Source: a virus. Taken from it: a stretch of DNA of 58,567 bases. Positions within the stretch are counted from its first letter, which is position 1. The number at the start of each line of letters is the position of its first letter. Below the pieces are notes generated by a model, which worked only from the letters and a program-made list of their open reading frames with translations, did no database searches and was not told the DNA's origin. The stretch spans positions 1 to 58,567 of IMG/VR virus record IMGVR_UViG_3300030331_003634; one strand, 5' to 3'. Shown here in pieces: positions 35,330-58,567 of this stretch. The position numbers and the translations under genes are program-made.

Positions 35330-35330
35330 T

Positions 35331-36887: not shown

Positions 36888-36888
36888 T

Positions 36889-40773: not shown

Positions 40774-40775
40774 TC

Positions 40776-41060: not shown

Positions 41061-41064
41061 GGTT

Positions 41065-41403
41065 ATGAAAAACTTACTAATTACATTTTTCTTTATATCA
41101 TTATTATCTTTTGGTCAAGACTTTCCTGATGGAATGGTGGCTGTTGAGTTTAATGCTAGTTTTAATAAGTCTAACGAAGTTAGTTGGCTTCCTAAGCTTA
41201 CGGACTGTGAAATAGAAAGAGTTGATATAACAGCAGACGCAAGGTGGTCTAAAGAATATAAGATAGTAGTTGTTCCTACTATTGTAATATTTAATAACAA
41301 TGAAGAAGTAAAAAGATTTCAAGCAAATATAATGATGACTATGGAAGCTACTAAGAGTGAAGTTCAGAACTCTATAGACGAAATAGTAATGGAAGCATTT
41401 TAA
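41065..41403 (+). CDS. Exported thioredoxin-fold protein without CxxC
   Basis: A 112-residue protein with a signal peptide (MKNLLITFFFISLLSFGQ). The segment MVAVEFNASFNKSNEVSWL stands where thioredoxins have the WCGPC site but has no cysteine. VVVPTIVIFNNNEEVKRF at 68-85 is the cis-proline strand and turn of the thioredoxin fold. It is probably periplasmic and redox-inactive, so a binding or chaperone-like job is more likely. Confidence 0.65.
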   Translation: MKNLLITFFFISLLSFGQDFPDGMVAVEFNASFNKSNEVSWLPKLTDCEIERVDITADARWSKEYKIVVVPTIVIFNNNEEVKRFQANIMMTMEATKSEVQNSIDEIVMEAF

Positions 41404-41412
41404 ATTTAAATT

Positions 41413-41862
41413 ATGAGTTTAAGTAAAAATTTTTCTCGCTCAGAGATAGAACACAGTAACACAGCAAAAAGATTAGGTATTAGTAATGAAATGTCTGAAA
41501 AACATTTGGAAAGCATGCAAAGGCTTATTGATAATCTCATTCAACCTATGCGTGACGCTATTGGTCCTATTCGTATTAGTAGTGGTTATCGCAGTCCGAA
41601 ACTCAATAAAGCTATTGGGGGATCATCTCGCAGTCAGCACAGCAAAGGTGAAGCTTTGGATTTGCAGTTTTGGGAAAAAGGAAAAATGAATAACAAAGTT
41701 ATTTATGACTGGGTATTAGAATCAGGTGTAGAGTTTGATCAAATGATAAACGAATTTGATTTTTCTTGGATACACATATCTCTTAAATCGAGAGAGAATA
41801 GAAGTCAAGTTCTTGAGGCCTACAAAAATGAAAAAGGAAAGACTGCTTATAAACTAGTTTAG
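41413..41862 (+). CDS. Endolysin, M15 peptidase (D-Ala-D-Ala/L-Ala-D-Glu type)
   Basis: A 149-residue protein with SGYRSPKLN at 57-65, then SQHSKGEALDL and WIHIS. Zinc ligands by pattern are His76, Asp83 and His121, as in M15A peptidases that cut peptidoglycan stem peptides. There is no signal peptide, so it needs a holin. A holin gene follows after 2 nt, which supports a lysis role. Confidence 0.9.
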   Translation: MSLSKNFSRSEIEHSNTAKRLGISNEMSEKHLESMQRLIDNLIQPMRDAIGPIRISSGYRSPKLNKAIGGSSRSQHSKGEALDLQFWEKGKMNNKVIYDWVLESGVEFDQMINEFDFSWIHISLKSRENRSQVLEAYKNEKGKTAYKLV

Positions 41863-41864
41863 TT

Positions 41865-42251
41865 ATGAGTAAATTATTAAACTTTTTAGGTGGTGGTGTT
41901 GTAAAACAGGTTGGAGATGTAATAGATAATCTTAGTACATCTGAGGAAGAGAGATTAGAAGCAAAGCGTAAAATGGAGGAAGTTCTTATGCAGGCTGAAT
42001 CGCAAGCACAAGAACAAGTTACTAGACGATGGGAGGCAGACATGAAGTCTGACAACTGGTTATCTAAGAATATTAGACCTTTGATATGTATATTTTTAAC
42101 TGCAATTTTTGTAGTTTTGTCAGTGTTTGATGGTAATATAGGGGAGTTTGTTATTCAAGAAAGCTACATACCTATATATCAAACATTATTAATAACAGTA
42201 TATGGAGCTTACTTTGCAGGTAGGTCTATAGAAAAAATAAGAAAAAAGTAA
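41865..42251 (+). CDS. Holin (GTA_holin_3TM-like)
   Basis: A 128-residue protein. It starts with an amphipathic segment, then a charged helix (SEEERLEAKRKMEEVL...), the family-like run DNWLSKNIRPLICIFLTAIFV and a second hydrophobic helix (YQTLLITVYGAYFAGRSI). The WLSKNIRPL before the first membrane span is characteristic of the three-span GTA-type holins. It directly follows the endolysin. Confidence 0.78.
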   Translation: MSKLLNFLGGGVVKQVGDVIDNLSTSEEERLEAKRKMEEVLMQAESQAQEQVTRRWEADMKSDNWLSKNIRPLICIFLTAIFVVLSVFDGNIGEFVIQESYIPIYQTLLITVYGAYFAGRSIEKIRKK

Positions 42252-43802
42252 ATGAGTAATTTAAAAGGAAAATCTATATCCTCCACTTATAAGAATCTAT
42301 TACAAACTTCTGTAGAGTTAACAGATGGTAAGTTAAAAGATGTAGAGACAGGTGCTGGTAACATCACTTCATTGAAGGTGTCTACAGATAAAGTTTCTGT
42401 AACTAAATTAGGTGTAGGTACAGGATCATCAACTCCTGATGGTTTACTTCATGTTTTATCAGTTAGTGCAGGGGCAGTAAATGCTAGCTCTTTTGCTAAC
42501 CAGGTAGTTTTAGAAAACTCTTCAGATTCTGGAATGTCTATATTATCTGGCACATCAAATTCTGGTAATATTTATTTTGGAGATGTAAACAAAAACAATG
42601 CAGGTCAGGTATTTTACGACCACTCTAGTGATTCTTTATCTTTTGCTACAAATGGATCTGAAAAAGTTAAAATTGATAAAGATGGAAATCTTAAAGTAAG
42701 TGGTACAGTATCTCAGTCAGATGATAGATTTGAACTTGTAGAGTACTTTGAAAAAGTTCCAAGCTTAGGCATAACAGATGCTCAAGTTAGTCAAGCTACT
42801 GACGCTACAACTGCAGTTACTTTAAATGCTAAATATGGTATAATAACAATGCAGTCAGTTGACTTAGCTGCTACAGATACTGTAGAGTTTACTTTTAATA
42901 ATGCTCACATATACGGAGCAACATCTCAAGTTTTAGTTACTTTACAAGATGGTGGTACTATAGTTGATAACGCTATGGTTAATGTTATCGTACATGATAT
43001 AGCTGATGGTAGTTGTAAAATTAGAGTTGGTACTAATGGTACTGACATTGCAGCTCAAGTATTTAAATTATTTTTTATAGTAGATCCTTACATTATTCCT
43101 AATCAAAACTTTGTTTTAGGAGGAGTTAGTGGTGGTTCTTTACAAGTGTCTTCTGGATCTGGAAGACCTACAAATTTTGCTGGTATTAAACTAGCTACAG
43201 GAACAACTGATAATGATTTTACTGTTTTAACACCTAGAGATGCAGAAACTGAAATGCCATCTGGTCATGATTCTTCTGCTTGGTCTTCTGTTCCTTTCGG
43301 TACAGAAAATAAAATAGAGTTTTCTTGTGGTATATCTACATCAGTAACTATAACTGAAACTGCTATATGGGCTGGGTTAAAATTAACAGAAGTTGGTACT
43401 ATTGCTACAGACGCAGATCAAGCTTATTTTTTATACTCTAGTGATGATGATGCACAAACAGGGACTTTAACAACAAATGGTAATTTACATTTTGTATATA
43501 GTGTAGGTGGAACAGATTTTATAACAAACTTAGGAATAACAGTTACTACCAATACTGTTTATAGGTTAAGAATATCTTTTGATGAAAATAGAAAGATTAG
43601 TGTTTTTGTAAACAATGTTCAATATGGTTTAGTTACCACTGCAACAGCAGGTGGAGGAACTCAGTCAATAAGTACAACAAAATCTTTAGCTATGACTGAC
43701 GACATAGATTTAGTACCTTTTGTTGGTATTCAAACTTTAACTACTGCAAGTAGAGGTATGCAGGTAGGATATGTAAAACTATCTAGAGATTTATTCGAGT
43801 AG
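42252..43802 (+). CDS. Fibre-like virion protein, 516 aa
   Basis: The N-terminal 45 residues (SSTYKNLLQTSVELTDGKL) look like a virion-binding part. From about 55 to 155 it has the PDGLLHVLSVSAG...SDSLSFATNGSEKVKID.DGNLKVSGT pattern found in phage tail-fibre shafts upstream of chaperone domains, but I see no S74 chaperone motif. The C-terminal half (after SGRPTNFAG) looks like a concanavalin-type beta-sandwich. It follows the holin by 0 nt. Confidence 0.6.
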   Translation: MSNLKGKSISSTYKNLLQTSVELTDGKLKDVETGAGNITSLKVSTDKVSVTKLGVGTGSSTPDGLLHVLSVSAGAVNASSFANQVVLENSSDSGMSILSGTSNSGNIYFGDVNKNNAGQVFYDHSSDSLSFATNGSEKVKIDKDGNLKVSGTVSQSDDRFELVEYFEKVPSLGITDAQVSQATDATTAVTLNAKYGIITMQSVDLAATDTVEFTFNNAHIYGATSQVLVTLQDGGTIVDNAMVNVIVHDIADGSCKIRVGTNGTDIAAQVFKLFFIVDPYIIPNQNFVLGGVSGGSLQVSSGSGRPTNFAGIKLATGTTDNDFTVLTPRDAETEMPSGHDSSAWSSVPFGTENKIEFSCGISTSVTITETAIWAGLKLTEVGTIATDADQAYFLYSSDDDAQTGTLTTNGNLHFVYSVGGTDFITNLGITVTTNTVYRLRISFDENRKISVFVNNVQYGLVTTATAGGGTQSISTTKSLAMTDDIDLVPFVGIQTLTTASRGMQVGYVKLSRDLFE

Positions 43803-43834
43803 TAAAATATATAATAAATTTAAATTAAAGAAAA

Positions 43835-44110
43835 ATGGAAGCAATAAATCCTATTATAAGAAAAATAACAATAGGGGACTTAAAGCAAGGACTGACTTAT
43901 CAGGTAGGTCAAAAGATGCTTGGAGGTTCACTAGAAGTCACCGCAATAATTCAAGACGAAGCGGCTTGGTATAAGCATCAACAAGTAGTGTATGATGTGT
44001 ATATAAAAAAAGATGAAGAGGAGTTTTCAAGACCTTGGAAAAGGTTTTTTTCTCAGCCAACAGCAATAGAATACAATACTGCTGTTTTAGATGAGTACGA
44101 AGTAAAGTAA
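43835..44110 (+). CDS. Hypothetical protein, 91 aa
   Basis: It starts MEAINPIIRKITIGDLKQGL and contains YQVGQKMLGGSLEVTAIIQDE, followed by YDVYIKKDEEEF. Predicted strands and short helices. It precedes the GroES-like gene by 18 nt. No family recognised. Confidence 0.6.
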   Translation: MEAINPIIRKITIGDLKQGLTYQVGQKMLGGSLEVTAIIQDEAAWYKHQQVVYDVYIKKDEEEFSRPWKRFFSQPTAIEYNTAVLDEYEVK

Positions 44111-44128
44111 ACTTAAATATAATCAAAA

Positions 44129-44704
44129 ATGAAGCCAATTAAAGACATATACTGGATAGAGGTAGAAAAAGAAACAGAAGATACCATAATGTTAAACGGT
44201 GTAGAATTGTATAGAGATACCTCTTATGATCCTATGAGATTAGCAAGACAATATGGTACGGTGTATAAAACACCAATGCAAGACACTAAAGAAACTGGAA
44301 TACAAGAGGGTGATAAAGTTTGGTTTCACCATTTTGTAGCAACAGATACGAATCATGTCAAGCATGCTGATAAGGATAATATATATCAAGCTTTTGCAGA
44401 GCAGATATACCTTGTTAAAAGAGAAGATGAGTATATTCCTGTAGGGGTATGGAATTTTATGGAGCAAGAAATGAAGGAACCAGAAAAAACTGAGTCTGGT
44501 ATATTTTTAGAAACTTCAGCATCTGAAGTAGAGCTTCATGGAAAGGCAGTTATAATAAATGACTGGATGAAAGATCAGGGAGTTAAAGAAGGCGACAGAG
44601 TTATGTGGAGTGAAAACTCTGAATATGACATGAATATAGATGGACAAAAACTTCTTCGCATGCGTAACTTTGATGTCTTAGCAGTTTATGAAGGAGCAGA
44701 ATAG
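44129..44704 (+). CDS. Co-chaperonin (GroES/gp31-like), two tandem domains
   Basis: A 191-residue protein. The first half reads as a GroES-like barrel (QYGTVYKTP, then GIQEGDKVWFHHFVA and QIYLVKREDEYIPVG). The second half repeats it (TESGIFLE, HGKAVIIN, GVKEGDRVMWSENS, LLRMRNFDVLAVYEG). In T4, gp31 replaces GroES for folding the capsid protein. The gene lies upstream of terminase and capsid genes, which fits such a job with host GroEL. Two fused copies in one chain are uncommon. Confidence 0.7.
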   Translation: MKPIKDIYWIEVEKETEDTIMLNGVELYRDTSYDPMRLARQYGTVYKTPMQDTKETGIQEGDKVWFHHFVATDTNHVKHADKDNIYQAFAEQIYLVKREDEYIPVGVWNFMEQEMKEPEKTESGIFLETSASEVELHGKAVIINDWMKDQGVKEGDRVMWSENSEYDMNIDGQKLLRMRNFDVLAVYEGAE

Positions 44705-44975
44705 AGATTATGCTCTTAAAACTTTAGAGAAGTTAATAGAAGCAAGTAAGGGAGCTGTAGATCTTCTTATAGAAGAGATAGGCAAACCTTTAATAGAAGA
44801 AGATGACGCTAAAAGAAGACAGGCTATAAAAGCAAAAAGAGAATGTTTTGAGGACTGTCAAGAAATTCTTTTAGGAATAAAAAACCTTGAAGATAGAATC
44901 AAGGAAGGAGAATCCTTAATAGAAGAGAAAAAAGATTTTAAAGGATCTTTTGCTGAACGGTATGCAAAAAAGTGA
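44688..44975 (+). CDS. Helical protein upstream of TerL; possible small terminase or accessory
   Basis: A 95-residue all-helical charged protein (ALKTLEKLIEASKGAVDLLIEE... KNLEDRIKEGESLIEE). It overlaps both the co-chaperonin gene (17 nt) and TerL (14 nt). Small terminases often lie just before TerL, but no DNA-binding motif is visible here. Confidence 0.45.
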   Translation: MKEQNRDYALKTLEKLIEASKGAVDLLIEEIGKPLIEEDDAKRRQAIKAKRECFEDCQEILLGIKNLEDRIKEGESLIEEKKDFKGSFAERYAKK

Positions 44976-47043
44976 TACTATATATCTAATAGAGGGCAGT
45001 GAAGGAGAGGTATTAGAGTTTGAAAACTTAAATATAATTTTACCTAAAAAACCTAGATATAAAAAAGATATACTATATCACAACCTACCTAAAAAACAAC
45101 AAAGATGGGTTAGGCAGGATATACCAAAGGGGTTGACAAGAGAGAACGCTACAGATTATGTAGACTATATAGAGGAGGAGTTTAGAAGAAGAAGGGATGG
45201 TTTATGGTTTTACAACAATGGTGTTCCTACTTATATTACTGGATCGCATTATATGTTTATTCAGTGGAGTAAAATAGATGTTGGTTATCCTGATTACAGG
45301 GACGCTAACAGAACGTTCTTTATTTTTTGGGAAGCGTGTAAAAACGATAAGAACTCATACGGTATGTGTTTTCTTAAAAACAGACGTAGTGGTTTTTCTT
45401 ATATGGCTAGTAGTGAGATAGTTAATCAAGCTACTCAAGTTTACGATAGTAATTTTGGTTTACTTTCTAAAACTGGTGCTGATGCTAAAACTATGTTTAC
45501 AGATAAGGTAGTTCGTATATACAGAAACTATCCATTCTTTTTTCAACCTATACAGGATGGTTCTAGTAATCCTCGTGTTGAGCTTGCTTTTAGAGAGCCT
45601 GCAAAAAAGATTACTAAAAACCAAAAGCATATAGAAAAGTCTGAAGCTTTAAATTCTATAATAGATTGGAAAAATACTGCTGATAATAGTTACGATGGTA
45701 TGAAGCTTAAACTTTTAGTACATGATGAAGCTGGTAAGTGGACAGGTCAAAACTCTATAAAGAAAAACTGGAGTGTAACTCAAACGTGTCTTTTATTAGG
45801 TAGAAAAGTGGTTGGTAAATGTATGATGGGTTCTACTGCTAATAAACAACAAGATGGTGGTGCAGAGTTTAAAGATATATTCTATGACTCAGATATGGGA
45901 GAAAAAGATCTTAACGGTAGAACAAAGAGTGGCTTGTACAAATTATTTATACCTGCTTATGATAACCTTGAAGGTTTTATAGATGAGTATGGATATAGTG
46001 TTATAGACACTCCTGATAAGCCAGTTATGGGTATTGACGATATGTATATTGATACTGGTGCTAGAGATTATATACAAAATAGAAGAGATGTTTTAAAAAA
46101 TGATACTACTGCTTTATCTGAATTTAAAAGACAGTTTCCATTTACTGTAGAGGAAGCATTTAGAAATGACACACAAAGTTGTATATTTGATGTCGAAAGG
46201 ATTTATCAGCAGATGGATTATAACGAAGTTAATAATACTCCTACAACAAGAGGAGAGTTTGTTTGGAAAAATGGCGTACAAGACAGCGAAGTTATATGGA
46301 TACCTCACAGAAAAGGTAAATGGGAGATTACTTGGGTTCCAGAGATTCAAAACCAAAATGTTATTACATCTAGGTATAACAAGAAGTTCCCTGGTAAATC
46401 AGATGCTTTGGTTGCAGGATGTGACCCTTATGATCATGATACCACTACGGATGGTAGAAGGTCTGATGCTGCTGCTCATGTATTCCATAAGTTTAGCATG
46501 GCAAGTGATGCGTCTATGCAGTTTGTGTGTGAGTACATTAATAGACCTCCTAAAGCGGAGATATTTTACGAAGACATGATTAAGATGTGTGTGTTTTATG
46601 GATGTCAAATATTAGTAGAGAATAATAAAGTAGGAATACTAAAGTATTTTGAAAACAGAGGATACTATGAGTATTTAATGGATAGACCAGATATGACTCA
46701 CACAGAGTGGAGTAGAGGAAAGCAAAAGACAAAAGGAATACCTGGATCAGGTGCTGCAGTAATAAATGCTCAAGCAGAGGCTATAGCAACATATATATAT
46801 GACCACGTTGGTTATAATGCAGACACAGGAGAGATTGGAAGATGTTTTTTTAACACGCTTTTAGATGATTGGAGTAGATTTGAAATAGATAATAGAACAA
46901 AGTACGATGCTAGTATATCGTCATCATTGGCTTTACTAGCGTCACAGAAATATATAAAACCTAAAAAAGAAATAAAAAAAGCACACCCTATAGTAAAAAA
47001 ATATAATGTTAAGGGGATGTATAGTAAAAGAATTAAGGCATGA
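44962..47043 (+). CDS. terL: Terminase large subunit
   Basis: I choose ATG 44962 (MQKSDTIYLIEGSEGEV, 693 residues) over a TTG at 44950. The ATPase has a Walker A-like RRSGFS at 141-146, and Walker B LLVHDEAG with D255-E256. The nuclease domain starts near VAGCDPYDHD (D488) and continues with FHKFSMASDASMQFVCEY. This is the motor that cuts and packs DNA. The sequence is of the crAss-like or Bacteroidota podovirus type. It overlaps the portal start (ATGA). Confidence 0.9.
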   Translation: MQKSDTIYLIEGSEGEVLEFENLNIILPKKPRYKKDILYHNLPKKQQRWVRQDIPKGLTRENATDYVDYIEEEFRRRRDGLWFYNNGVPTYITGSHYMFIQWSKIDVGYPDYRDANRTFFIFWEACKNDKNSYGMCFLKNRRSGFSYMASSEIVNQATQVYDSNFGLLSKTGADAKTMFTDKVVRIYRNYPFFFQPIQDGSSNPRVELAFREPAKKITKNQKHIEKSEALNSIIDWKNTADNSYDGMKLKLLVHDEAGKWTGQNSIKKNWSVTQTCLLLGRKVVGKCMMGSTANKQQDGGAEFKDIFYDSDMGEKDLNGRTKSGLYKLFIPAYDNLEGFIDEYGYSVIDTPDKPVMGIDDMYIDTGARDYIQNRRDVLKNDTTALSEFKRQFPFTVEEAFRNDTQSCIFDVERIYQQMDYNEVNNTPTTRGEFVWKNGVQDSEVIWIPHRKGKWEITWVPEIQNQNVITSRYNKKFPGKSDALVAGCDPYDHDTTTDGRRSDAAAHVFHKFSMASDASMQFVCEYINRPPKAEIFYEDMIKMCVFYGCQILVENNKVGILKYFENRGYYEYLMDRPDMTHTEWSRGKQKTKGIPGSGAAVINAQAEAIATYIYDHVGYNADTGEIGRCFFNTLLDDWSRFEIDNRTKYDASISSSLALLASQKYIKPKKEIKKAHPIVKKYNVKGMYSKRIKA

Positions 47044-49439
47044 TGTATAATAATACAAAAGATAAGTTAAATGGCTATCCTTCTCCGTTAGCTACGAATG
47101 AAGAGAAAGCTGACATTAAGTATGGTCTTGATTACTTTAAGGCTATGTATTATGATCATAGTAAAAATTCAGATGTCTACCATAGAGATAGAAAGATAAG
47201 GTATTCTAGAAATAGAGCATACGCTGAGGGTAGTCAAGACATAGGAAAGTATAAAGACCTATTAGATGTACAAGGTGATACTGCTTATCTTAATATAGAT
47301 TTTACTCCAGTATCAATAATACCAAAGTTTGTTGACGTTATAGTTAATGGTATGGTTAATCAGGAGTACGATATAAAAGCCAAATCTATAGACCCTATAG
47401 CTGCAGAAGAAAGATTAAATAAAAAGAAGCAGATGTATGCTGACATGATTACCAAAGACTTTGTAGAAGGTCTAGAAGATCAAACTGGTATACCTCTTGC
47501 TCCTAAAGGTTTTGTTGCTAAAAGCTCTGAAGAGATAGATATGTTTATGGCTATAAACTACAAGCAAAATGTAGAGATAGCATTAGAAAAAGCAATAGAA
47601 TATACTTTAGATATAAACGATTACGATGAAGTTAAAAGATTAATGATTCGTGATTTAGTTGTTTTAGGTTTATGCTCTTCTAAAATTGAGCTATCTCCTT
47701 CTAGAGGTGTTACAATTAGACACGTAGATCCTGCTAATCTTATTACTTCATATTCATCAAAGCCTGACTTTAAAAACGTTAGACATGCGGGTGAGATTTA
47801 CTCAATGACTATAGCTGATCTTAAACAGCAAGCTGGAGATCAGTTTAGTGAAGATGATTATCAGAAGATAGCTAAAGAGTATGCAGGTAAGAATAACAAC
47901 CCTATGACTTATGGTGATAGAGCTTACTATGACAATGGTAACGAAACTTATGATTATGATAAGTTTAGTGTTAATGTTTTAGATGCTGAGTTTATTACAA
48001 GTCACTCTTTAAATTACGAGAAGAAAGAAAATAAGTTTGGTGGTTTTTCTGTAAATAAAAAAGCATCTAACTATAAGGCTCCTAAAAACTCAAAAACTAA
48101 AAGAGAGAACATAGGATCTACAGTAAAGGTAGTTTATACTGGTAAGTATATAATAAATACAGATTATATATTTAATTATGGTATGATGGAAAACATGCCT
48201 AGATCTAAATCTAATTTATCAGAAACTAATTTATCATATATTATATATCAACCTAATCTTTATAAGATGAAGAGTAAGTCTTTGGTTGATAGAATGATTC
48301 CTTTTGCTGATCAGATACAATTAGCTCACCTTAAAATACAACATGTTCTTGCTAAGGCTAGACCTAAGGGTGCAGCCTTTGAGATAGGTTCTTTAGAGAA
48401 CGTATCAAAAGGTGATGGTGGTACATTTACTCCTTTAGAGCTTCAAGAAATATACGATCAAACTGGTAATATATACTATAGACGTATAGATGATGAGGGT
48501 AACATGACAGGTGCAGTACCTATTGCTGAGTTAGAAAATGGTATAGGTAGAGATTTTGGAACTTTAATAAATGTTTATAATCATAATCTACAGATGATTC
48601 GTGATGTGACTGGTATTAATGAAGCACGTGATGCTTCTCAGCCATCTAGCGAAGCACTTGTAGGTGTTCAGAAGTTAGCTTTACTAGCATCTAACAACGC
48701 TACAAGAGATATAAATGACGCTTACCTAAATGTTACAAAAAGAACTTCTCAGTGTATATCTATGAGAATGCAAGATCTTTTAAATTATAAGGGTCTACAT
48801 AATATGTATAGTAATGTCATAGGTGACACTGCAATGCACAGCATAGATATGATGAAGAAGATGTCTATACATGAGTTTGGTATAACTCTAGAGGTTGCAC
48901 CTAGTGAAGAGGAAAGACAAATGATGGAGCAAAACATTCAAGTTTCTTTAGCTCAAAAAGAACTTAGACTTGAAGATGCTATAATGATACGTTCTATTAG
49001 AAATATTAAGATGGCTAATCAGATGCTTGTTCTTCGTAGAACTAAATATCAAGAAGAACAGCAAGCTCAAGCAAGACAAGCTTCAGAGCAAAATGCTATG
49101 ATGCAACAACAGTCATCACAGCAGGCTGCACAGTTAAGACAGCAAGAGATGCAGGCTGAAGTTCAAATGGAGCAAGCACGTATTCAAGCTAAGAATCAGG
49201 CAGAGATGCAGTTAAAGCAATTAGAGTTTCAACTAAAAGAACAGTTTGAGCAAGCTCAACATCAACGAAGGTTGAGGGAAATAGAGTTAGGTAATTTAGG
49301 TAAAGAAGGTACTGCTTCCATACAGGGAGAGGTTCGTAAAGATATTCAACAACAGTCTGCTATGAATCAATCTCAACTTATAGAACAGAGAAAAGATCGT
49401 AGAGGCCCTTTAGGTGAAGAGCAAAACATATCTCAATAG
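47040..49439 (+). CDS. Portal protein
   Basis: A 799-residue protein. It has the layout of large podovirus portals: an N-terminal wing region (KFVDVIVNGMVNQEYD), a stem region (DRMIPFADQIQLAHLKIQHVLA, then RDVTGINEARDASQPSSEALVG) and a long Gln-rich coiled C-terminus from about 670 on, as in crAss-like and P22-like portals. The portal forms the ring through which DNA enters. It directly follows terL. Confidence 0.85.
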   Translation: MMYNNTKDKLNGYPSPLATNEEKADIKYGLDYFKAMYYDHSKNSDVYHRDRKIRYSRNRAYAEGSQDIGKYKDLLDVQGDTAYLNIDFTPVSIIPKFVDVIVNGMVNQEYDIKAKSIDPIAAEERLNKKKQMYADMITKDFVEGLEDQTGIPLAPKGFVAKSSEEIDMFMAINYKQNVEIALEKAIEYTLDINDYDEVKRLMIRDLVVLGLCSSKIELSPSRGVTIRHVDPANLITSYSSKPDFKNVRHAGEIYSMTIADLKQQAGDQFSEDDYQKIAKEYAGKNNNPMTYGDRAYYDNGNETYDYDKFSVNVLDAEFITSHSLNYEKKENKFGGFSVNKKASNYKAPKNSKTKRENIGSTVKVVYTGKYIINTDYIFNYGMMENMPRSKSNLSETNLSYIIYQPNLYKMKSKSLVDRMIPFADQIQLAHLKIQHVLAKARPKGAAFEIGSLENVSKGDGGTFTPLELQEIYDQTGNIYYRRIDDEGNMTGAVPIAELENGIGRDFGTLINVYNHNLQMIRDVTGINEARDASQPSSEALVGVQKLALLASNNATRDINDAYLNVTKRTSQCISMRMQDLLNYKGLHNMYSNVIGDTAMHSIDMMKKMSIHEFGITLEVAPSEEERQMMEQNIQVSLAQKELRLEDAIMIRSIRNIKMANQMLVLRRTKYQEEQQAQARQASEQNAMMQQQSSQQAAQLRQQEMQAEVQMEQARIQAKNQAEMQLKQLEFQLKEQFEQAQHQRRLREIELGNLGKEGTASIQGEVRKDIQQQSAMNQSQLIEQRKDRRGPLGEEQNISQ

Positions 49440-49470
49440 TTTGATATTAATATAAAAAAAATTATATTTG
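49440..49470 (+). promoter_or_regulatory. Strong late promoter before scaffold and capsid
   Basis: TTTG (49440-49443), 19-nt spacer, TATATTTG (49463-49470), then CG. This fits the Bacteroidota consensus fully. It lies 29 nt before the ATG at 49500. Confidence 0.85.
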
Positions 49471-49499
49471 CGAAAATAAAATAAATTAAATTTAAGACA

Positions 49500-50573
49500 A
49501 TGGATATAAGAGAAGACTTATTAAGTAAACTTGGTGGAGAGGTTGTTCAACCACAAAACCAACAAAATATTGTAGACTTGACTGGTGATGAAAACCAACC
49601 AGCTGAGTCTCAACCTACAACGCAGGAACCTTCCAACGTTGTAGATTTAACACAAGAGAGTTCTTTAAATACTGAGGAGACTAACGTTGATGAATCTGAA
49701 GTTAGTCAACAGCAAGAGGGTGAGGAAATCAGTGATGACGAAGTTGTCTTACAATACCTTAGCGAAAAGCTTGGGCGAGACCTAACATCATTTGATGATC
49801 TTAACACAACAAGTGAACAAACAGACTATGAAGACTTTGCTAGCGATCAGCTTCGAGTTATCAATGAGTATGTTAAAAACACTGGTCGTACAGTTCAAGA
49901 TTACCTAAACACTCAAACTGTTGATTTATCCAACGTGTCTGATGATGCAGTCTTAAAGGAGTATCTAAGATTAGATAATCCTAATTTAACTGAAGCTGAG
50001 TTAAATGATTACATGGCTACAACATACAAGATGGACAAAGAGGAGTATAACGAGAGACAAATGAACGCTGGTAAGGTCCAGCTCATGAAGGACGCTAAAG
50101 CTGCTAGAGACTACTTTAACGAGGTCAAAGAAGAGTATGCTATGCCTACAGAGTCAGAAGATTTTTCTGTATCCCAAGAGGATAGAGAAGAATGGATCGG
50201 CACTATGAGTGCTGAGGTTGATGACTTGGATGGTATATCATTCGCTATGAACGATCAGGGTGAAGAGTTTGTTTATCAACTTGATGATGACGCAAGGAAT
50301 GAAATCAAGGGGTACAACTCAGACCTAGAAAGCTTCTTTGATCAGTATGTAGACGAAGGTGGTAACTGGGACTTTGACAAGCTCAATACAGATATGTATA
50401 TCTTGAACAATATAGATAAGATTGTTCGAGGTGTCGCTAATCAGTACAGAAGCAAAGGAACAGAAAGCGTAATTAATGAGATTAAGAACCCATCATTTGC
50501 ACAAGACAAGCAAGATGCACCTCAGAAGCAACAGACAACTCTTGAGATGTTAAGAAAACAAATTTTAGGTTAA
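49500..50573 (+). CDS. Scaffold-like acidic protein
   Basis: A 357-residue, very acidic, Gln-rich protein. The first 80 residues are disordered-looking and hold VDLTGDENQ, VVDLTQESS. The rest is helical, with a C-terminal basic helix (QKQQTTLEMLRKQIL). Position between portal and major capsid gene, acidity and helical end fit a capsid scaffold. No protease is evident nearby. Confidence 0.7.
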   Translation: MDIREDLLSKLGGEVVQPQNQQNIVDLTGDENQPAESQPTTQEPSNVVDLTQESSLNTEETNVDESEVSQQQEGEEISDDEVVLQYLSEKLGRDLTSFDDLNTTSEQTDYEDFASDQLRVINEYVKNTGRTVQDYLNTQTVDLSNVSDDAVLKEYLRLDNPNLTEAELNDYMATTYKMDKEEYNERQMNAGKVQLMKDAKAARDYFNEVKEEYAMPTESEDFSVSQEDREEWIGTMSAEVDDLDGISFAMNDQGEEFVYQLDDDARNEIKGYNSDLESFFDQYVDEGGNWDFDKLNTDMYILNNIDKIVRGVANQYRSKGTESVINEIKNPSFAQDKQDAPQKQQTTLEMLRKQILG

Positions 50574-50611
50574 AAAAGAAAATTAATTACTTTATTTAAA
50601 ATTATAAAAAA

Positions 50612-52003
50612 ATGGCAACAGTAAGTTTAGCCTCAGGAATGGTGCCAACACCTTCTAATGTGGCAGTTGCAACTACATCAAACTATGTAGGTACATCAAC
50701 GTTAATTAACGCTGACCGTACAGATGGTATTCCATTACATAAACGTGATGTAGATGAGCAACTAATTAAGCGATACGGTAATCAAGGGATTACTGGATTA
50801 ATGGAATTGTTGGGTAATAAAAAAGAAACAACAAACCAAACTTTTGAACACTATGAAGAAACTTTCCTTCACAATCACTTTACAGGTGTTATTGGCGGTG
50901 GTTCAGGTGTTGTTAATATAGATGACACTTTTGATGACTTAGCTAATGGTAATGGTAGAGTTGCATTAAGAGTAGGAGATTTAGTTTTAGGTGGATCAGG
51001 TTCTATGTACTATGTTTCTGCTGGATCTGGAGATGACTATACTTTAAAAAATCTTTCAGATAATAATACAGCTAGTAATGATGCAGACACAAAGTTTACT
51101 ATTATTGGTAATGCTTATGCTGAAAGAACAGAGCAGCCAGTTGGTATTACACCTCGTGTAGATCAATACCAAAACAAGTGTCAAATTATTAAAGAATCAT
51201 TTACTGTTTCAGGATCTGAAGCTACGAATGTTATTTATGTAAAAGTAAGCAACCAAGAATTTGGTACTGGTTACTTATGGTACTTACAAGGTGAGGCTGA
51301 TACTTACCAAAGATTTATGGACTACTCTGAGCTTGCAATGATTGTGGGTGATGCTGGTGGTGGATCTTTAACTGACGCTTCATCTAACTCTGTTGTAACT
51401 ACAGAAGGTTTATTAAAGTTTATCGAGAACAAAGGTCAAACTATGGATCTTGGTTCTTCAGCAATTACAATGGCTGACTTTGATGCTGCTGTAAAATCTT
51501 TAGATAAACACAGAGGTGCTAAAGAAATGGCTCTTTACGCTGGTATTAACTTATCTTTAGATATTGACGACTTATTAGCTTCACAAGGAGCTTATGCTGC
51601 TGGTGGTGCTAACTATGGTACTTTTGCTAACAGCAAAGACATGGCGTTGAATTTAGGCTTTAATTCTTTCCATCGTGGTGGTTACACTTTCCACAAGAAA
51701 ACTTATGACCTATTTAACCGTCCTGACTTATTAGGTGGTGATGGATTTAAATTCAATGGTTTCGGTATGTGTATCCCTATGGATAATCAAAGAGATCCAC
51801 GATCAGGAGAAAGCATTCCTTCTTTACGTATGCGATACAAAGCTGCGAATGGTTACTCTCGTGAGATGGAGCACTGGTTAACTGGATCTGCGGTTCTACA
51901 AAACAGAACTAACGAGAAAGACGAGTTGCGATCTCACTACCGTACTGAACGTGGTTTTGAAGGATTTGCTCCTAACCGTTTCTTATTGTTCAAAAAATCA
52001 TAA
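50612..52003 (+). CDS. Major capsid protein (HK97-like fold)
   Basis: A 463-residue protein. It starts MATVSLASGMVPTPSN; an N-terminal arm is followed by DEQLIKRYGNQGITGLMELL and later LAMIVGDAGGG, KGQTMDLGSS and RPDLLGGDGFKFNGFGMCIP. Length, gene order after portal and scaffold, and a high usage of Gly/Asn fit a podovirus major capsid protein of crAss-like type. No maturation cleavage site can be read from sequence. Confidence 0.85.
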   Translation: MATVSLASGMVPTPSNVAVATTSNYVGTSTLINADRTDGIPLHKRDVDEQLIKRYGNQGITGLMELLGNKKETTNQTFEHYEETFLHNHFTGVIGGGSGVVNIDDTFDDLANGNGRVALRVGDLVLGGSGSMYYVSAGSGDDYTLKNLSDNNTASNDADTKFTIIGNAYAERTEQPVGITPRVDQYQNKCQIIKESFTVSGSEATNVIYVKVSNQEFGTGYLWYLQGEADTYQRFMDYSELAMIVGDAGGGSLTDASSNSVVTTEGLLKFIENKGQTMDLGSSAITMADFDAAVKSLDKHRGAKEMALYAGINLSLDIDDLLASQGAYAAGGANYGTFANSKDMALNLGFNSFHRGGYTFHKKTYDLFNRPDLLGGDGFKFNGFGMCIPMDNQRDPRSGESIPSLRMRYKAANGYSREMEHWLTGSAVLQNRTNEKDELRSHYRTERGFEGFAPNRFLLFKKS

Positions 52004-52029
52004 TTATTAATATATAAAGACATAAGAAA

Positions 52030-52416
52030 ATGGAGAAATATTTTTATTTTAGAAAAGATGCTACTACAGCTAATGATGATGATCAAGTAAATGGATCTAA
52101 CTTAGTTAAGGTATCAGATCTTATTAGTATGGAAGCCACAGGAAACACTAGTTTAGTTTTAAGATTCCATCCTCGTATGAACGCTTTTGCTGCTGGTGGT
52201 AATGCTGCTGCTGATGCTGATAATCTTACGGATACTTTAACATTGACTGTTGGTACTAATGCACAGAGAACTGTTATTGAAACTATTTGTGCTGCTATTG
52301 CTAAACCAATGATTGCAGGTGCACCAAACTTAATTGTTTTGTTTGATGCAAATTCAAAAGATGGATTAGATGGTATTACAGATGTTGTTACTGCTGTAGC
52401 TGCTGCTCAAGCTTAA
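52030..52416 (+). CDS. Head accessory / decoration protein, 128 aa
   Basis: It starts MEKYFYFRKDATTANDDD and has strands (SLVLRFHPRMNAFA) and a helix at the end (VIETICAAIAKPMI). It is just after the major capsid gene and before a terminator, so it is likely made at a similar high level. Head-fibre or decoration role inferred. Confidence 0.6.
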   Translation: MEKYFYFRKDATTANDDDQVNGSNLVKVSDLISMEATGNTSLVLRFHPRMNAFAAGGNAAADADNLTDTLTLTVGTNAQRTVIETICAAIAKPMIAGAPNLIVLFDANSKDGLDGITDVVTAVAAAQA

Positions 52417-52443
52417 TAGCTAACAACTATTAATTATATTACT

Positions 52444-52468
52444 GGAAGGGGCTTGTCCCCTTCCTTTT
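52444..52468 (+). terminator. Intrinsic terminator after capsid genes
   Basis: GGAAGGGG 52444-52451 and CCCCTTCC 52457-52464 form an 8-bp stem with a 5-nt loop, then TTTT. Downstream genes would need read-through. Confidence 0.85.
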
Positions 52469-52503
52469 ATAAAACTTTAAGTTAATTTTAGAAAATAATT
52501 ATT

Positions 52504-53382
52504 ATGACACCAACAAAAACACGTAAGGCTGTTACGCCTCCTACGTCCACTAAGGTCGAAGCTAAAGCTCCCGTAGTAGAAAAAAAATTCACTCCTCAAT
52601 TTACTAATAGAAAACAAGAGTTTAAACCTACTGTTTACGAATTAATATCAAAAGCAAAAAGAAAAAATGGTATGCCACAGTATCCTATAGTTTCTTTATT
52701 GAAGGCTGAAGATATTATTTTTGACCCTACAACTGGTGAGAATAGAAAAATTAGATATGTTCCTGGTGAGACATCTATATTTGCTGATGAACAGCCAGAA
52801 ACTGCTAGAATGAGAGAGCCTATTGCTTTTAATAATGGTTATCTTTTTGTAGATCATACTAATCCTACTCTTAAAAAATATTTAGATACTTGCAACGCTA
52901 ATGGTAGCAATCCACATAGAATAAAGTCTAAAAATATCATGTTTAAAATAAGGGATAATGAAAAATCTGCTAAAGATAAAATATCAAAGGTTAATGATAC
53001 CATGGATGCTGTTCAAGCTGCCCTTAAAATGCCTTTAAATGAGCTTGTAGGATATGCTAAGGTTCTAGGTGTAAACACTGATAAGAGTGTTGATGAAATT
53101 CGTTGGGATATGAAAATACAAGCAGAGAATAATCCTAAAGGTTTCTTAGCTGGTATGAATGATCCTAGAACAGAAATGAAGCAATTATTATTAATGGCTC
53201 AAGAGTCAGGAATAATAAGAATGGATAAAAAAGCTATTACTTGGGTATCTTCAGGAAATACAATTTGTGTTCCTGCTATAGGAACTAAACCTATTGACAG
53301 AATGGTAGACTTTTGTTCTGAAGGTGAGGGAGAACAGATATATGCTGAGATAGAACGTAGGCTACAAGCCCTTAATGGATAA
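52504..53382 (+). CDS. Virion-associated protein, 292 aa
   Basis: It starts MTPTKTRKAVTPPTSTKVEA, a disordered basic N-terminus. The remainder has YPIVSLLKAEDIIFDP, PGETSIFADEQPETAR and MREPIAFNNGYLFVDHT, then helices. It lies between capsid and connector genes, so a capsid-vertex or minor head protein is likely. No promoter is clear before it. No catalytic motif. Confidence 0.55.
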   Translation: MTPTKTRKAVTPPTSTKVEAKAPVVEKKFTPQFTNRKQEFKPTVYELISKAKRKNGMPQYPIVSLLKAEDIIFDPTTGENRKIRYVPGETSIFADEQPETARMREPIAFNNGYLFVDHTNPTLKKYLDTCNANGSNPHRIKSKNIMFKIRDNEKSAKDKISKVNDTMDAVQAALKMPLNELVGYAKVLGVNTDKSVDEIRWDMKIQAENNPKGFLAGMNDPRTEMKQLLLMAQESGIIRMDKKAITWVSSGNTICVPAIGTKPIDRMVDFCSEGEGEQIYAEIERRLQALNG

Positions 53383-53482: not shown

Positions 53483-54208
53483 ATGACGATTGATGAAGTA
53501 TATAAGCTAGTTCAGGTGTTTGCAAATAAGGAGCAGAGAGGGTTTATAAGTCCGTCTGACTTCAACCTTTTAGCAAAGCAAGCTGAACTTGAGCTATACA
53601 ATAAACGACTTTCTATAATAAAGCAAAAATCACCTACAAGAAAATCTCAAGGATTATACGCAGAAAATTTAGCTCCAGAGCTGGCAAGACAAGATATAGC
53701 TACTTTTTTAACTAGATCTGATATGAATGTAACTACTAAGACAATTCCATATTTAGGTGTAACTGTAGCTGTAACTTCTGATTATGTAGAATCTATGTTT
53801 ATTAATGTAGATGAGCATCATGACATCTCAACTAATATTCCTGTAGATATTGTAGAGCCAAAAGATATAAATCAAATACTCAGAAGTAGTTTAGTGAAAC
53901 CATCCATGGAGTATCCTATAGCTTTACTTGGATCAGAAGGTGGGACGTCAAAAGTATTTAGTGTGTTTCCTGATACTATAACTAAAGTTATAGCTTACCA
54001 TTACATAAACACTAACACTCCAAAATGGAGTTACGTTACTGTAGCGGGTAAGCCTGTTCATGATTCTTCGTCATCAAATGGATTTAAAATATCTAACAGA
54101 TGTCATGGAGAGATTGTAGTAAAGATATTAGAATATTTAGGAGTTTCAATTAGAGAGGCTGATGTTGTTCAGTACGCACAGGCTAGTGAGATAAAAGCAG
54201 ATAGTTAA
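53483..54208 (+). CDS. Head-tail connector / ring-type protein, 241 aa
   Basis: It starts MTIDEVYKLVQVFANKEQRG and contains ISPSDFNLLAKQAELELYN, VKPSMEYPIALLGSEGG, FPDTITKVIAYHYINTNTPKW. The pattern of a helix that begins with a DF...AKQAE motif, followed by strands and an aromatic-rich line, resembles ring/adaptor proteins of crAss-like phages. Stop and next ATG are 2 nt apart. Confidence 0.65.
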   Translation: MTIDEVYKLVQVFANKEQRGFISPSDFNLLAKQAELELYNKRLSIIKQKSPTRKSQGLYAENLAPELARQDIATFLTRSDMNVTTKTIPYLGVTVAVTSDYVESMFINVDEHHDISTNIPVDIVEPKDINQILRSSLVKPSMEYPIALLGSEGGTSKVFSVFPDTITKVIAYHYINTNTPKWSYVTVAGKPVHDSSSSNGFKISNRCHGEIVVKILEYLGVSIREADVVQYAQASEIKADS

Positions 54209-54210: not shown

Positions 54211-55422
54211 ATGGCAATAGATTACACAAGTATAGACGAGGTCGTAAATGACTTTCAGTTAATGATGGATGACACGTCTTATGATAAAGACGCAGAAATT
54301 TATCAATTAAGATTATTAGCACTTCAAGGGTTAAGAGAGCTTAAGTTTGATGCAGAACAGGAGGTTAAAATAGATGAATTATTTGTAAACTCTAGCACTC
54401 TTCAATGTACTTTACCTAGTGATTTTGTTAAACTATTAAGGGTTGGGTATAAAAACAGTGCTGATGAGTTTGTATCTTTGGGTTATAAGTCTAATTTATC
54501 TTTAGATGCTCGTGTAACATCTCAAATAAGTGAAGACCCTTATGATGAGAACAATCCTTATTTTCACACTGACATGGGTAGAAAATATGGTGTAGGTGGT
54601 GGACAAAACGCTTTAGGATATTATAGATTAAATAGAAATCTTAATAGTATATCTTTTTCCTCAGAACTTGCTGGTAAAACAGTATTTGTAGAGTACATTT
54701 CTGATGGTATAGGCTCTACTCAACCAAGAGATCATGTTATTGAGCTTACATTTAACAAGTCCTCACTTACTGCCTCTGGTGCAATTGTTTCTGGAGCTAT
54801 ATTAAAAACACCAAAACCTGATGGTACTGGTGTTCATGAATTTACTTTTACAACTGGTTCTCCGTCAAGCTCTAGTCTTATTCAAATTGGTCCGAATGAT
54901 TCTAGTCCTATTGTAGCAGAAAAATTTTCTACTGTCATAAATGAAGGTTATCCTAATTTAGGTATATCACCTGTAGACACTAGAATAACAGCATCTCAAA
55001 ATACAAGCTCAAACATAGTTACTTTAACGTATAAAAATATAATTGTAAATCCTCTTTCTCTTGAAAATTTAACTTTTGCAATTAATACAGATCAAGATGT
55101 AGTAGTATCTGATGAAGTAACTATTACAGGTGTCAAAGTATTAGCTGATTCAGGTGGAGTTCCTATAGAAGCTAAATTAATTCAAAAAGGTGTTATAGGG
55201 GAGGGTCCTAGAGTTCACAAATTTTGTGAGGAGGCTCTTCGTTGCTACATATATTACAAATACATTCAAAGAAAACGTGGCGTTCCTGCTAACGAAAAAC
55301 AAATGGCTAAGAGAGCATATTACAACGAGAAAAGATTAGCTAGAGCTAGAATGATGAACTTTAATAAAGAGGCTGCTATGCAGATTTCTAGAAAAGCATT
55401 TAAGCAATCTCCTAAGATATAA
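54211..55422 (+). CDS. Connector / tail-ring protein, 403 aa
   Basis: It starts MAIDYTSIDEVVNDFQLMMD and has LLALQGLRELKFDAEQEV, LPSDFVKLLRVGY, LAGKTVFVEYISDG; the C-terminus KFCEEALRCYIYYKYIQRKRGV... AKRAYYNEKRLARARM is the helical end common to adaptor proteins of this phage group. The middle has an Ig-like or beta insertion (about 185-315). It precedes the nozzle gene. Confidence 0.65.
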   Translation: MAIDYTSIDEVVNDFQLMMDDTSYDKDAEIYQLRLLALQGLRELKFDAEQEVKIDELFVNSSTLQCTLPSDFVKLLRVGYKNSADEFVSLGYKSNLSLDARVTSQISEDPYDENNPYFHTDMGRKYGVGGGQNALGYYRLNRNLNSISFSSELAGKTVFVEYISDGIGSTQPRDHVIELTFNKSSLTASGAIVSGAILKTPKPDGTGVHEFTFTTGSPSSSSLIQIGPNDSSPIVAEKFSTVINEGYPNLGISPVDTRITASQNTSSNIVTLTYKNIIVNPLSLENLTFAINTDQDVVVSDEVTITGVKVLADSGGVPIEAKLIQKGVIGEGPRVHKFCEEALRCYIYYKYIQRKRGVPANEKQMAKRAYYNEKRLARARMMNFNKEAAMQISRKAFKQSPKI

Positions 55423-55428: not shown

Positions 55429-58400
55429 ATGGCACAAGACAAGAAAGTTTTTACAGGTGGGATGGATAAAGATTCTGATCCTCGCTTGATCAAACAAGGT
55501 GATTACAGAGATGCTTTAAATATAAGAAGTGTATCATCATCAGATTCTACAGCAGGTTCTGTTGAAAACATAGAAGGTAATACCTTAGTTCCTTATAATT
55601 TTATTACTGAAAATAATGAGTATGTAAATGTAGAATCAGGTATAGGTGTCAACGGTACAGGTGTTAGTATAGATGATGTTCAGCCTGATCTTGTAAATCT
55701 ATCTCAAACTATTGTGTTTTCAGGAACAGAGTCAATAAACTATTTCTCTAATTTTACAATAGGTTATGAGAGTGATGAATCTTCTGATCCTGTTTTTATA
55801 TCTACATCTTTTACAACATGGTTTGGTAGTGCACAGTTAACTAATACCTCGCAGACACTTTATGATAAGTTTGGACCAGGAGGTCCTTTATCTTCTTTTA
55901 GCGTAGTAGATCTTATTACAGGTCTTCCTATAAACATAAATGCTTCAGTAGATTTTCTTCCTGGTGATTTATTTGATGGATCAAATAGTTTTTCAATAAC
56001 ATTTACATCTAGTCAGCCTGGTGCTTCTTTTAATTTAATTATAAAAAGCACTTTCTCAAACACAGACTATCCTCAAGGAGAATACGATATAGGGGAAGAT
56101 TACAGTGATCTTAATAATTACTATATTGGGCAAAACACTATTATTAATGGTTCTACTGGATTTTCTCAATCTGATAATGACACTAATGTAGATGATGATG
56201 GAACTACGTTTGGCCCTGGTCCTGCGGATGGTGTAGGATCAACAGTATATGAATTTAACGTTGATGGTGAGCAAGGAACAACTACTCCTGGTGATCCTGA
56301 AAATAATGTTAATATGTATTCTTATGATCAAACTGCTGGAGATGGACTATCTACTGATGATTATATTATAACAGAAGTTTTAAATTTAACTGAGTCAATT
56401 GATAAATTTAACAGTGGTGGTGAGTTTGAGTTTGGTCCATCTCAAGATAGTATATCTCAATTTCTTGTTGACGCTATATCTAATGATAAATTTGGAGAGG
56501 TAATAATAGAAGGTAGTAATGGTAGTACCACTGAGCTATCAAGTATTACAACTAACTTTGTTAAAACTACAAGTCTTGGTGGTAAGTCTTCTAACTTAGG
56601 TAGAAACAACCCAGATGCTGTTCCATACTCTCAGTTAGAATTTTATTTTAATAGTGAAGAAGTTTCAGAGGGTGATGGTTTTAGCATTAATCAAGGTACT
56701 TTAACTTTTAGTGGGGAAGAGGTAAAAGCTGTAAACACTTACAGTCTTAGTGCAAATATAATAGAAGGTAAAAACTTTAAGTTAGATTTAACGGTATCAG
56801 GATTACCATCTGGCAATAGCTTTACTGTTAATGTAGGTAATGACACTTTTGGTACAATAAGTGCTGACGGGTCTCATAGTATATTTATAAACGACCCTAA
56901 CAATTCTTCTGTTATATTTTTACAATTTGATAAAGATTTTACATCTTCTGACACCCTTACCTTAACAAATGTTAGATTATTTTTAGAAAACGAACAGGTA
57001 GATAGACTAACTGTAAGGTTAGCTTCTCCAAACTTTACAAGGTTTAAGTTAGCATTTGCATCAAGTGAGACTGAGCTAAGAAACGACTTAGTAGCTGGTA
57101 GTCCAGTCACTAGTTTATCATCTTGGTATAGTGGTACTGGAATAGAACTTATTAATAAATCTGCTGGAACAACTGATTTATCTTCAGTTAGTGACGATTA
57201 TCAAGAGTTATTATTAGAACTGCAAGAAGCTGAGAATACAATACGTTTGTTGCGGGCTCAAATAAATTCAATAACAGATACATATAATAATCAAATAAGT
57301 ATATTGGAGCAACAATTAGCTGTGGCTAATTCAAATTTAGCTCAAGTTGAGATTGAATTGGCTAATGCAATTCATGCTGAAGATACACTTAGACGTGAGA
57401 ATGAAACACTTAGACAGTCTCAAAGACAATTGCAAAATGTTATTGCAACTTTTATAGACCAAGCAATAGATCCAAAGCCAGAAATACTTGTTAATCTTTA
57501 TGCTGGAAACATAGATACTATCAAGGAGTCACTTAATTTAATAGCTGCAGATTTAGTTAACCTAACTACAACTACTATTGTTAACTCTGAGCTTCAAGAT
57601 AAAGTAAATGATTTGACAGCAGATAATGCAAATTTACAAGCTCAGTTAGAGGAGTTATCGAATATAATTATTACCGAAAATGACACAGATATAAGTTTAA
57701 TTCAAGCTGCAACTGAACTTAAAAATAAAAATACTCAATTAGATGAAGAACTTTCTACTCTTCAAAACAACATAAATATTGTATTGTTTGGTGATGCAGA
57801 TGATCTAAATAATGCAGGTGGTTTGTATAGTGAATTAGGATTCCCAGTTTCTCAATCTGAATTTACTTTAACCAGTCTTGCTACTTTAATTTCTAGTACT
57901 CTTTCTGCTCAACAATCCTCTTATGAATCACAAATTGATATTCTTAATGTTGATTTAAGTAATGCTCAATCTTTAGCAACTTCTGCAGAACTTTCTGCTG
58001 CCTTTGCAGAAGGTGCTGCTTCAGTAGACATTACTTCAGATAACGCAATTTTAGCTGCTGCTGCCTTTGCAGATGGTGTTGCTTCAGTTCCAGTTATCAC
58101 TCAAGAAAATTTTGATACTGCTATAGAACTTGCTAATGCTGATGTTTTATTTGCACAAGAAGCTGTAGTTAACACCCAACAAGCTTTAGATGATGCTCAG
58201 GCAGCACTGGATGCTGGTATTGAAGATTTTGGTGACACTAATGTTGGTCCTATGCCTGGTCTTAGGTTAGCAGTAGATAACGCTATTGCTAACCTTGCAG
58301 CTGCTGAGTTACAAGTTAATATAAACCAAGCTTTTTTTAATGGTGTTCAATCAATAACAGCGGATGATGGGATTAGTCAATCTGATGTTGAAGCTGCTTA

Positions 58401-58567
58401 TTTAGAGGGTGTAGCTTCAGTAATTCCTGATGATGGTATAACGCAGGATGATGTAGATGCTGCTGTTGCTAATGCTGCTGAGGCTGTTGCTGCTGCTGAA
58501 GCTGCTGCTGCTGCTGCTGAGGAAGCAAAGGTGTTAGCTCAAGGTGAATTGGCTAATACACAAATTT
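55429..58567 (+). CDS. Giant nozzle/stabilisation-type tail protein, N-terminal part (continues at base 1)
   Basis: This frame is open from ATG 55429 to the window end and joins, in the same frame, the frame that begins at base 1; with the 19-base overlap removed the protein is 3430 residues. Its first 55 residues (GGMDKDSDPRLIKQGDYRDALNIR... then VENIEGNTL) match the start typical of podovirus and crAss-like stabilisation/nozzle proteins at the tail tip. After that come beta-rich, low-complexity segments, coiled coils at about residues 590-680 and 715-790, and an alanine-rich stretch near residue 1020. Four degenerate copies of a motif like EGVASVxxDDGITQxDVDAA lie at about 850-1015. The start lies 6 nt after the stop of the connector gene, consistent with head-to-tail gene order. 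The role is inferred from motifs and position. Confidence 0.75.
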   Translation, partial: MAQDKKVFTGGMDKDSDPRLIKQGDYRDALNIRSVSSSDSTAGSVENIEGNTLVPYNFITENNEYVNVESGIGVNGTGVSIDDVQPDLVNLSQTIVFSGTESINYFSNFTIGYESDESSDPVFISTSFTTWFGSAQLTNTSQTLYDKFGPGGPLSSFSVVDLITGLPININASVDFLPGDLFDGSNSFSITFTSSQPGASFNLIIKSTFSNTDYPQGEYDIGEDYSDLNNYYIGQNTIINGSTGFSQSDNDTNVDDDGTTFGPGPADGVGSTVYEFNVDGEQGTTTPGDPENNVNMYSYDQTAGDGLSTDDYIITEVLNLTESIDKFNSGGEFEFGPSQDSISQFLVDAISNDKFGEVIIEGSNGSTTELSSITTNFVKTTSLGGKSSNLGRNNPDAVPYSQLEFYFNSEEVSEGDGFSINQGTLTFSGEEVKAVNTYSLSANIIEGKNFKLDLTVSGLPSGNSFTVNVGNDTFGTISADGSHSIFINDPNNSSVIFLQFDKDFTSSDTLTLTNVRLFLENEQVDRLTVRLASPNFTRFKLAFASSETELRNDLVAGSPVTSLSSWYSGTGIELINKSAGTTDLSSVSDDYQELLLELQEAENTIRLLRAQINSITDTYNNQISILEQQLAVANSNLAQVEIELANAIHAEDTLRRENETLRQSQRQLQNVIATFIDQAIDPKPEILVNLYAGNIDTIKESLNLIAADLVNLTTTTIVNSELQDKVNDLTADNANLQAQLEELSNIIITENDTDISLIQAATELKNKNTQLDEELSTLQNNINIVLFGDADDLNNAGGLYSELGFPVSQSEFTLTSLATLISSTLSAQQSSYESQIDILNVDLSNAQSLATSAELSAAFAEGAASVDITSDNAILAAAAFADGVASVPVITQENFDTAIELANADVLFAQEAVVNTQQALDDAQAALDAGIEDFGDTNVGPMPGLRLAVDNAIANLAAAELQVNINQAFFNGVQSITADDGISQSDVEAAYLEGVASVIPDDGITQDDVDAAVANAAEAVAAAEAAAAAAEEAKVLAQGELANTQI
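58549..58567. repeat. Terminal 19-bp overlap with the window start
   Basis: The last 19 bases are identical to bases 1-19. The reading frame is kept across the join, so this is most likely an assembly overlap of a circular (or circularly permuted) genome. A real short terminal repeat is less likely because the cut would fall within a gene. Confidence 0.85.

Follow-up and report, generated by a model that had tools for sequence, protein, structure and literature searches.

A giant insert at one site of a crassvirus-type phage muzzle, encoded as a separate protein in some relatives, is probably a tail fibre

We analyzed a viral DNA stretch of 58,567 nucleotides (IMG/VR record IMGVR_UViG_3300030331_003634; hereafter the window) and found a single gene for a 3430-amino-acid (aa) protein which, judging by sequence homology, is a muzzle (nozzle) of the crassvirus type. 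The protein carries about 1650 aa between its N-terminal segment and its β-propeller. This insert occupies one fixed site, which is empty in other phages. We consider it probable that the protein is a muzzle with a built-in tail fibre or adhesin, which some phages make as part of the chain and others would attach in trans.

The gene runs across the two ends of the window, whose first 19 bases (1-19) are identical to its last 19 (58549-58567). With one copy dropped, the frame 55429-58548 continues into 1-7173 as 3430 codons with one terminal stop, as the original prediction of one gene hidden by the window ends had proposed. An independent contig, IMGVR_UViG_3300030098_002629, which supplied both locus L001 and locus L081, runs across the join and agrees with the window at 6000 of 6000 bases; its own frame is broken downstream of the join, near aa 2730. 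Two further loci, L082 and L083, each carry a homologue of 3592 aa that a single contig contains whole. Because L001/L081 match across the join and the L082 and L083 genes are uninterrupted in single contigs, the join is a cut in a circular contig and no genome end. The true genome end that would have spoken against the prediction is thereby excluded, and the 6000-base match of the independent contig also rules out an assembly artefact at the join.

55429-58548, plus strand: muzzle gene, residues 1-1040 of 3430 (open frame)
1-7173, plus strand: muzzle gene, residues 1041-3430 and stop (open frame)
58549-58567, no strand: 19-base copy of the window start, circular-contig join (ends overlap; bridged by L001/L081)

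Both the nozzle-like nature and the N-terminal signature that had been proposed for this gene were borne out, the former by a Pfam match and by homology of the core to the insert-free muzzles of flavobacterial phages in culture. The C-terminal piece in the window matched PHROG 14478 (1.5e-67) and the Pfam family crAss_MUZ_C (PF25729), the latter with 27.6 bits, 0.6 bits above the cut-off of 27. PF25729 scored 67.9 in phage phi38:1 and PF25731 scored 59.7 (E 2.2e-16) in the relative G013, and the second open reading frame (ORF2) of the divided relative G002 reached 20.3 against the Pfam muzzle models, under the cut-off. Profiles for the N-terminal segment, the first propeller stretch and the C-terminal core, which we searched against all loci, matched one window ORF in that order. 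In a profile-profile comparison (hhalign), the C-terminal core of insertless relatives aligned to residues 1049-1287 of gp44 of Bacteroides phage crAss001 (probability 94, E 1.4e-7). In PDB searches with phmmer and hmmsearch, the gp44 sequence was unmatched by the window piece (phmmer), by phi38:1 and by a six-member insertless profile. The 1371-aa gp44 (PDB 7qok and others) resembles the window muzzle in its N-terminal pattern (compared by eye), gene order and probable tail-tip role and, through the insertless relatives, in its C-terminal core.

55429-55602, plus strand: conserved N-terminal muzzle segment, aa 1-58 (GGM.KD.D.RLI..GDY.DALNIR...GSVENIEGN; HMM match)
2008-2295, plus strand: first propeller stretch after the insert, aa 1710-1805 (CIGSYEDKP... 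to TDNLNRPRKIN; profile match; omega 0.08)
5140-6270, plus strand: C-terminal muzzle core, aa 2754-3130 (profile match; the phi38:1 counterpart aligns to gp44 aa 1049-1287)
6076-6186, plus strand: crAss_MUZ_C (PF25729) match (27.6 bits, cut-off 27)
53483-54208, plus strand: ring (tail-barrel-type) protein gene, syntenic (phrog_14543, virion structural protein; the ring name is inferred from position)
54211-55422, plus strand: gene for a 403-aa virion protein, directly upstream of the muzzle gene (phrog_13977)

The genes run in the order terminase (TerL), portal, 357-aa gene, capsid, ring, 403-aa virion protein, muzzle, two genes and a 3014-aa protein, largely like elemoE, phi38:1 and MW202828. 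The muzzles of phi38:1 (1324 aa), phi13:2, Gundel, elemoE and MW202828 share family, gene order and flanking segments with that of the window. Across 32 genomes or records we matched one ring gene each, using a single query that divergent paralogues could escape; this fits the pattern of the phi13:2 outgroup. Several ring-protein genes are described as conserved and defining for the order Crassvirales (PMC10172136). The nearest named phages, at less than 60% identity, are Pachyviridae, Pervagoviridae and Elemovirus of Cellulophaga, Tenacibaculum and Flavobacterium, and we read the window phage as short-tailed, with hosts that are probably flavobacterial. The phage also encodes an 801-aa protein (37337-39742) that starts like a signal peptide and has a sorting domain for type IX secretion (PF18962, 3.8e-13), pointing to a host of flavobacterial type; the 344-aa protein encoded 3' of it also has an exported-like start. 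The 403-aa protein gene also seems to bear an insert, as its 283-aa phi38:1 homologue matches aa 5-167 and 334-392 only. The 3014-aa protein 3' of the muzzle (10088-19132) has relatives among the large late proteins encoded by phi13:2 and phi38:1, as well as a DUF3293 match.

We then examined the insertion site across relatives. In the window, 1651 aa separate the end of the N-terminal motif (aa 58) from the start of the propeller match (aa 1710), in agreement with the original prediction of about 1600 residues. Of 75 distinct propeller sequences, 54 had both parts in one ORF, 15 had them in two ORFs, and six lacked an N-terminal match (four cut by a contig end, two complete but diverged), so that the N-terminal segment was matched in 69 of the 75. 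Phage Panino, with an N-terminal match and no propeller match, stands outside all counts. Among the 69 distinct relatives with both parts, the site was empty in 27, held about 150-370 aa in 21 and more than 1100 aa in 20, and was broken inside in one. Undivided genes had gaps of 6-28 aa (27 sequences), 166-372 aa (14) and 1390-3373 aa (13 rows from 12 genomes, one contig appearing twice). In divided genes, the first ORF (ORF1) measured 209-245 aa (seven), 1179-1523 aa (seven) or 788 aa (one, broken inside the insert). All five of the named phage records that have both parts (phi13:2, phi38:1, Gundel, elemoE and MW202828) fell into the empty class, and the insertless muzzles of named phages have 7-12 aa at the site. 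The insert, which had been called exceptionally large, deserves that description against the named phage records and loses it among its clade members, the longest insert there being one of 3373 aa in a muzzle of 5135 aa (L113 1514-16921, genome G017).

55603-58548, plus strand: first part of the insert, aa 59-1040 (absent in phi38:1, phi13:2, elemoE, Gundel and MW202828)
1-1995, plus strand: distal, fast-evolving part of the insert, aa 1041-1705, with a second heptad stretch at aa 1233-1302
56617-56994, plus strand: jelly-roll domain resembling carbohydrate-binding modules (CBM), aa 397-522 (predicted model against PDB)
57187-57819, plus strand: long helical or coiled-coil stalk, aa 587-797 (model helices; heptads)
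58003-58458, plus strand: Ala-rich stretch, aa 859-1010, with four G-x-x-S-V/I repeats (aa 862, 883, 972 and 994)

The coiled coils, Ala-rich stretch and repeats that had been read in the insert are all present. Of 19 long-insert sequences that we examined, 8 have the G-x-x-S-V/I repeats, which are therefore no defining part of the insert. We utilized AlphaFold to model aa 1-850 from an alignment of 22 long-insert N-terminal parts (mean pLDDT 67.6). The first 85 residues were unstructured in the model, and aa 1-58, modelled apart from the rest of the muzzle, had pLDDT values below 50. Beta-rich domains were predicted at about aa 86-225, 270-395, 397-522 and 524-576. The third of these aligned to PDB structures with Z up to 11.8 (rmsd 2.4, 118 residues aligned); its matches included CBM22-, CBM29- and CBM4-type modules, interspersed with jelly rolls of other kinds, ephrin receptors among them. 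Foldseek rows pointing to insecticidal toxins or neurotoxins were rejected as kinship, since they share the jelly-roll fold alone and whole-model TM-scores were about 0.1. The insert of genome G020 contains an Lcl_C domain (Pfam, E 1.9e-19). In most long inserts, a second heptad stretch lies 3' of the variable part and would allow an out-and-back stalk. The long ORF1s of divided genes gave weak Pfam and PHROG matches, mostly to coiled coils, and a single-sequence fold of one whole ORF1 (G007, 1179 aa) had a mean pLDDT of 30. A reverse transcriptase (PF00078), as a diversity-generating retroelement acting on the insert would need, was found in none of 14 genomes, several of them fragments.

The insert consists of a conserved proximal half and a fast-evolving distal half. 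Of 18 other long-insert sequences, 13 could be aligned to the window over the first 620-870 aa or so; for the five of the G002 group, only the first 160-360 aa or so were alignable. Comparing the window with its close relatives G023 and G019, we obtained omega values of 0.00-0.03 for aa 1-58, 0.19 for aa 351-600 and 0.60-0.87 for insert aa 601-1640, followed by 0.08 for the first propeller stretch, 0.47-0.85 for aa 2201-2430 and 0.10 for aa 2751-3130. Synonymous divergence (pS) from G023 varied from 0.15 to 0.48 along the insert, an unevenness that hints at mosaic exchange. The variable region within the core may, by its position, be the tip-facing "crass" domain.

3481-4170, plus strand: second variable region, aa 2201-2430 (38-65% identity to G023 versus 75-95% for most of the core)

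These features bear on whether the insert is an adhesin at all. It could instead be a structural collar or skirt, a decoration that stabilizes or lengthens the tail, and the proximal part would suit such a role: its beta-domains align across the whole set of 22 long-insert sequences, the omega of aa 351-600 is low, and the long model helices could make a tube-like extension. However, the distal insert evolves as fast as the most variable region of the core and is swapped or resized between relatives, and the Lcl_C domain of G020 is of adhesin type. We therefore regard a collar as unlikely. Two features of adhesins are found in the insert, namely a conserved proximal part with a variable distal part and, by prediction, a coiled-coil stalk with domains of ligand-binding type (the CBM-like fold and, in one relative, Lcl_C). 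Some observations weigh against the fibre reading. The predicted jelly roll is a fold also found in proteins that bind no sugar, and in the undivided insert both chain ends return to the muzzle, unlike in classical fibres. The fibre reading stands without a relative of known function because aa 59-1040 had no homologue among 50,697 phage records. Moreover, the insert need not be the sole adhesin, as the window may have other fibre genes, such as 42252-43802. This candidate and a second one at 32642-34291 had no match in the regions of cultured relatives examined, and elemoE has genes annotated as tail fibre. The window also encodes, at 34298-35353, a 351-aa protein with AMYGAKMKKK repeats at its end.

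1903-2007, plus strand: linker at the seam, aa 1675-1709, the division point of the relatives' genes (profiles, seam DNA)

Among relatives with both parts, fission or fusion at the insert-propeller border is a repeated event. Each of the 14 clean divisions puts the start of ORF2 5-35 residues ahead of the propeller match and 2-27 bases past the ORF1 stop, and all nine divided sequences whose seam DNA we inspected have an ATG start. The linker is common to a divided and an undivided relative, reading GAKRFVKNKI followed by a stop in the former (G015) and GAKRFVRNKILKK in the latter (G016). We built a tree of 64 taxa from the 69 relatives, excluding L119, which is broken inside the insert, and four short rows. 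The divided or undivided state changed four times on this tree (FastTree; ML; 1000 of 1000 bootstrap trees), counted without direction, versus a minimum of 10 changes in 500 shuffles of the states. Long inserts formed one group, and insert class changed three times in 998 of 1000 bootstrap trees, versus a shuffled minimum of 23 among 500. The muzzles of phi13:2, MW202828 and Panino are divided elsewhere, near the C-terminal core and not at the seam of the window (L095 13339-14064, L096 14020-14823 and L099 12255-13217); both parts of the phi13:2 muzzle are annotated as structural proteins. G002 (L126) and the window share 99.84% identity along 15,950 bases (window 36636-52586); this stretch stops abruptly at the start of the tail module, and identity is about 79% from 52.6 kb on. 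This break could reflect recent recombination or a chimeric contig, and we set it aside as proof.

The divisions admit other explanations. Proteolysis at the seam during assembly might sever the undivided protein, so that both forms would finish as two chains, with the insert as a separate fibre held by the N-terminal segment; the short linker tolerates a chain break in several lineages, but the linkers, inspected by eye, share no obvious cleavage motif, and we find this improbable. Alternatively, in divided forms the N-terminal segment of ORF1 would be a relic and ORF2 alone would make the full muzzle. The ORF2s of the G002 group begin with a conserved MSL.(I/V)KNKN stretch that could stand in for a strand, yet the start of ORF2 looks, by eye, like the linker of undivided forms. 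Within divided clades, omega of the N-terminal segment stays at 0.00-0.25, and the segment thus appears to remain functional when the gene is divided. This makes the relic explanation, too, rather doubtful. Finally, assembly or sequencing errors in an intact long gene, as the error- or mutant-like frame breaks within the gene of G003 and of G001, which otherwise matches the window exactly in the compared stretches, might suggest, are a highly improbable source of 14 divisions that all fall 5-35 residues from the propeller match, with a stop and then an ATG after 2-27 bases, in sequences that cluster consistently on the tree.

Under the fibre reading, the muzzle would close the tail tip and hold a fibre or adhesin cassette of about 1650 aa between aa 1-58 and the rest of the β-propeller. 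Each of six muzzle subunits would bear one such appendage at the tip, at the propeller, and the distal part of the insert would bind a glycan or protein of the cell surface. In divided genes, the fibre protein would dock through its N-terminal muzzle segment, completing the propeller or the ring-joining part in trans. Both host binding by the insert and this trans assembly are inferences. T7 has a propeller nozzle (gp12) with six fibres (gp17) nearby; unlike in the window, its fibre and nozzle are unrelated separate genes. The comparison with the T7 nozzle follows PMC10172136. In phage SU10, the short fibres (gp16) are separate trimers that dock to a loop (Trp 839-857) on the rim of blade 1 in the propeller of the nozzle gp17 (PMC9509320). 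Both SU10 and the window would place a fibre at the nozzle propeller, a likeness in arrangement, whereas the window fibre lies within the muzzle chain or, in divided relatives, bears the muzzle's own N-terminal segment. With the fibre in the chain, near the probable counterpart of the SU10 dock, binding could act directly on the gate and help it to open. The crAss001 muzzle is thought to open upon cell contact (PMC10172136). Its known insertions, IG1 (residues 163-292) and IG2 with the crass domain (318-1021), lie in other places than the window insert (PMC10172136), and its link at the site of the latter is short. Length variation of muzzles is reported for the crass and IG2 regions and not for this site (PMC10172136).

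The muzzle family itself is already known; what appears new from these sequences is that this site bears a giant insert, which has repeatedly become a protein apart from the muzzle or been joined to it. We found no report of an insert of such size at such a site, or of a repeated muzzle or nozzle split, in a search of open-access full text. A broader proposal, which we put at slightly under even chances, is a two-part gated tip in which a fibre polypeptide gives the muzzle N-terminal segment to the propeller, covalently or in trans, as an exchangeable, gate-wired unit that has undergone at least four switches. Annotation pipelines can also be expected to overlook or mislabel the parts of divided genes, as one half resembles an orphan fibre and the other an N-terminally truncated muzzle. 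In short-tailed phages, the muzzle or nozzle serves as the gate, and receptor binding must in some way be relayed to it. Here, the gate protein itself seems to incorporate host recognition, at a single loop, and natural relatives provide every intermediate (empty, small, giant and divided), making the relay testable by comparison.
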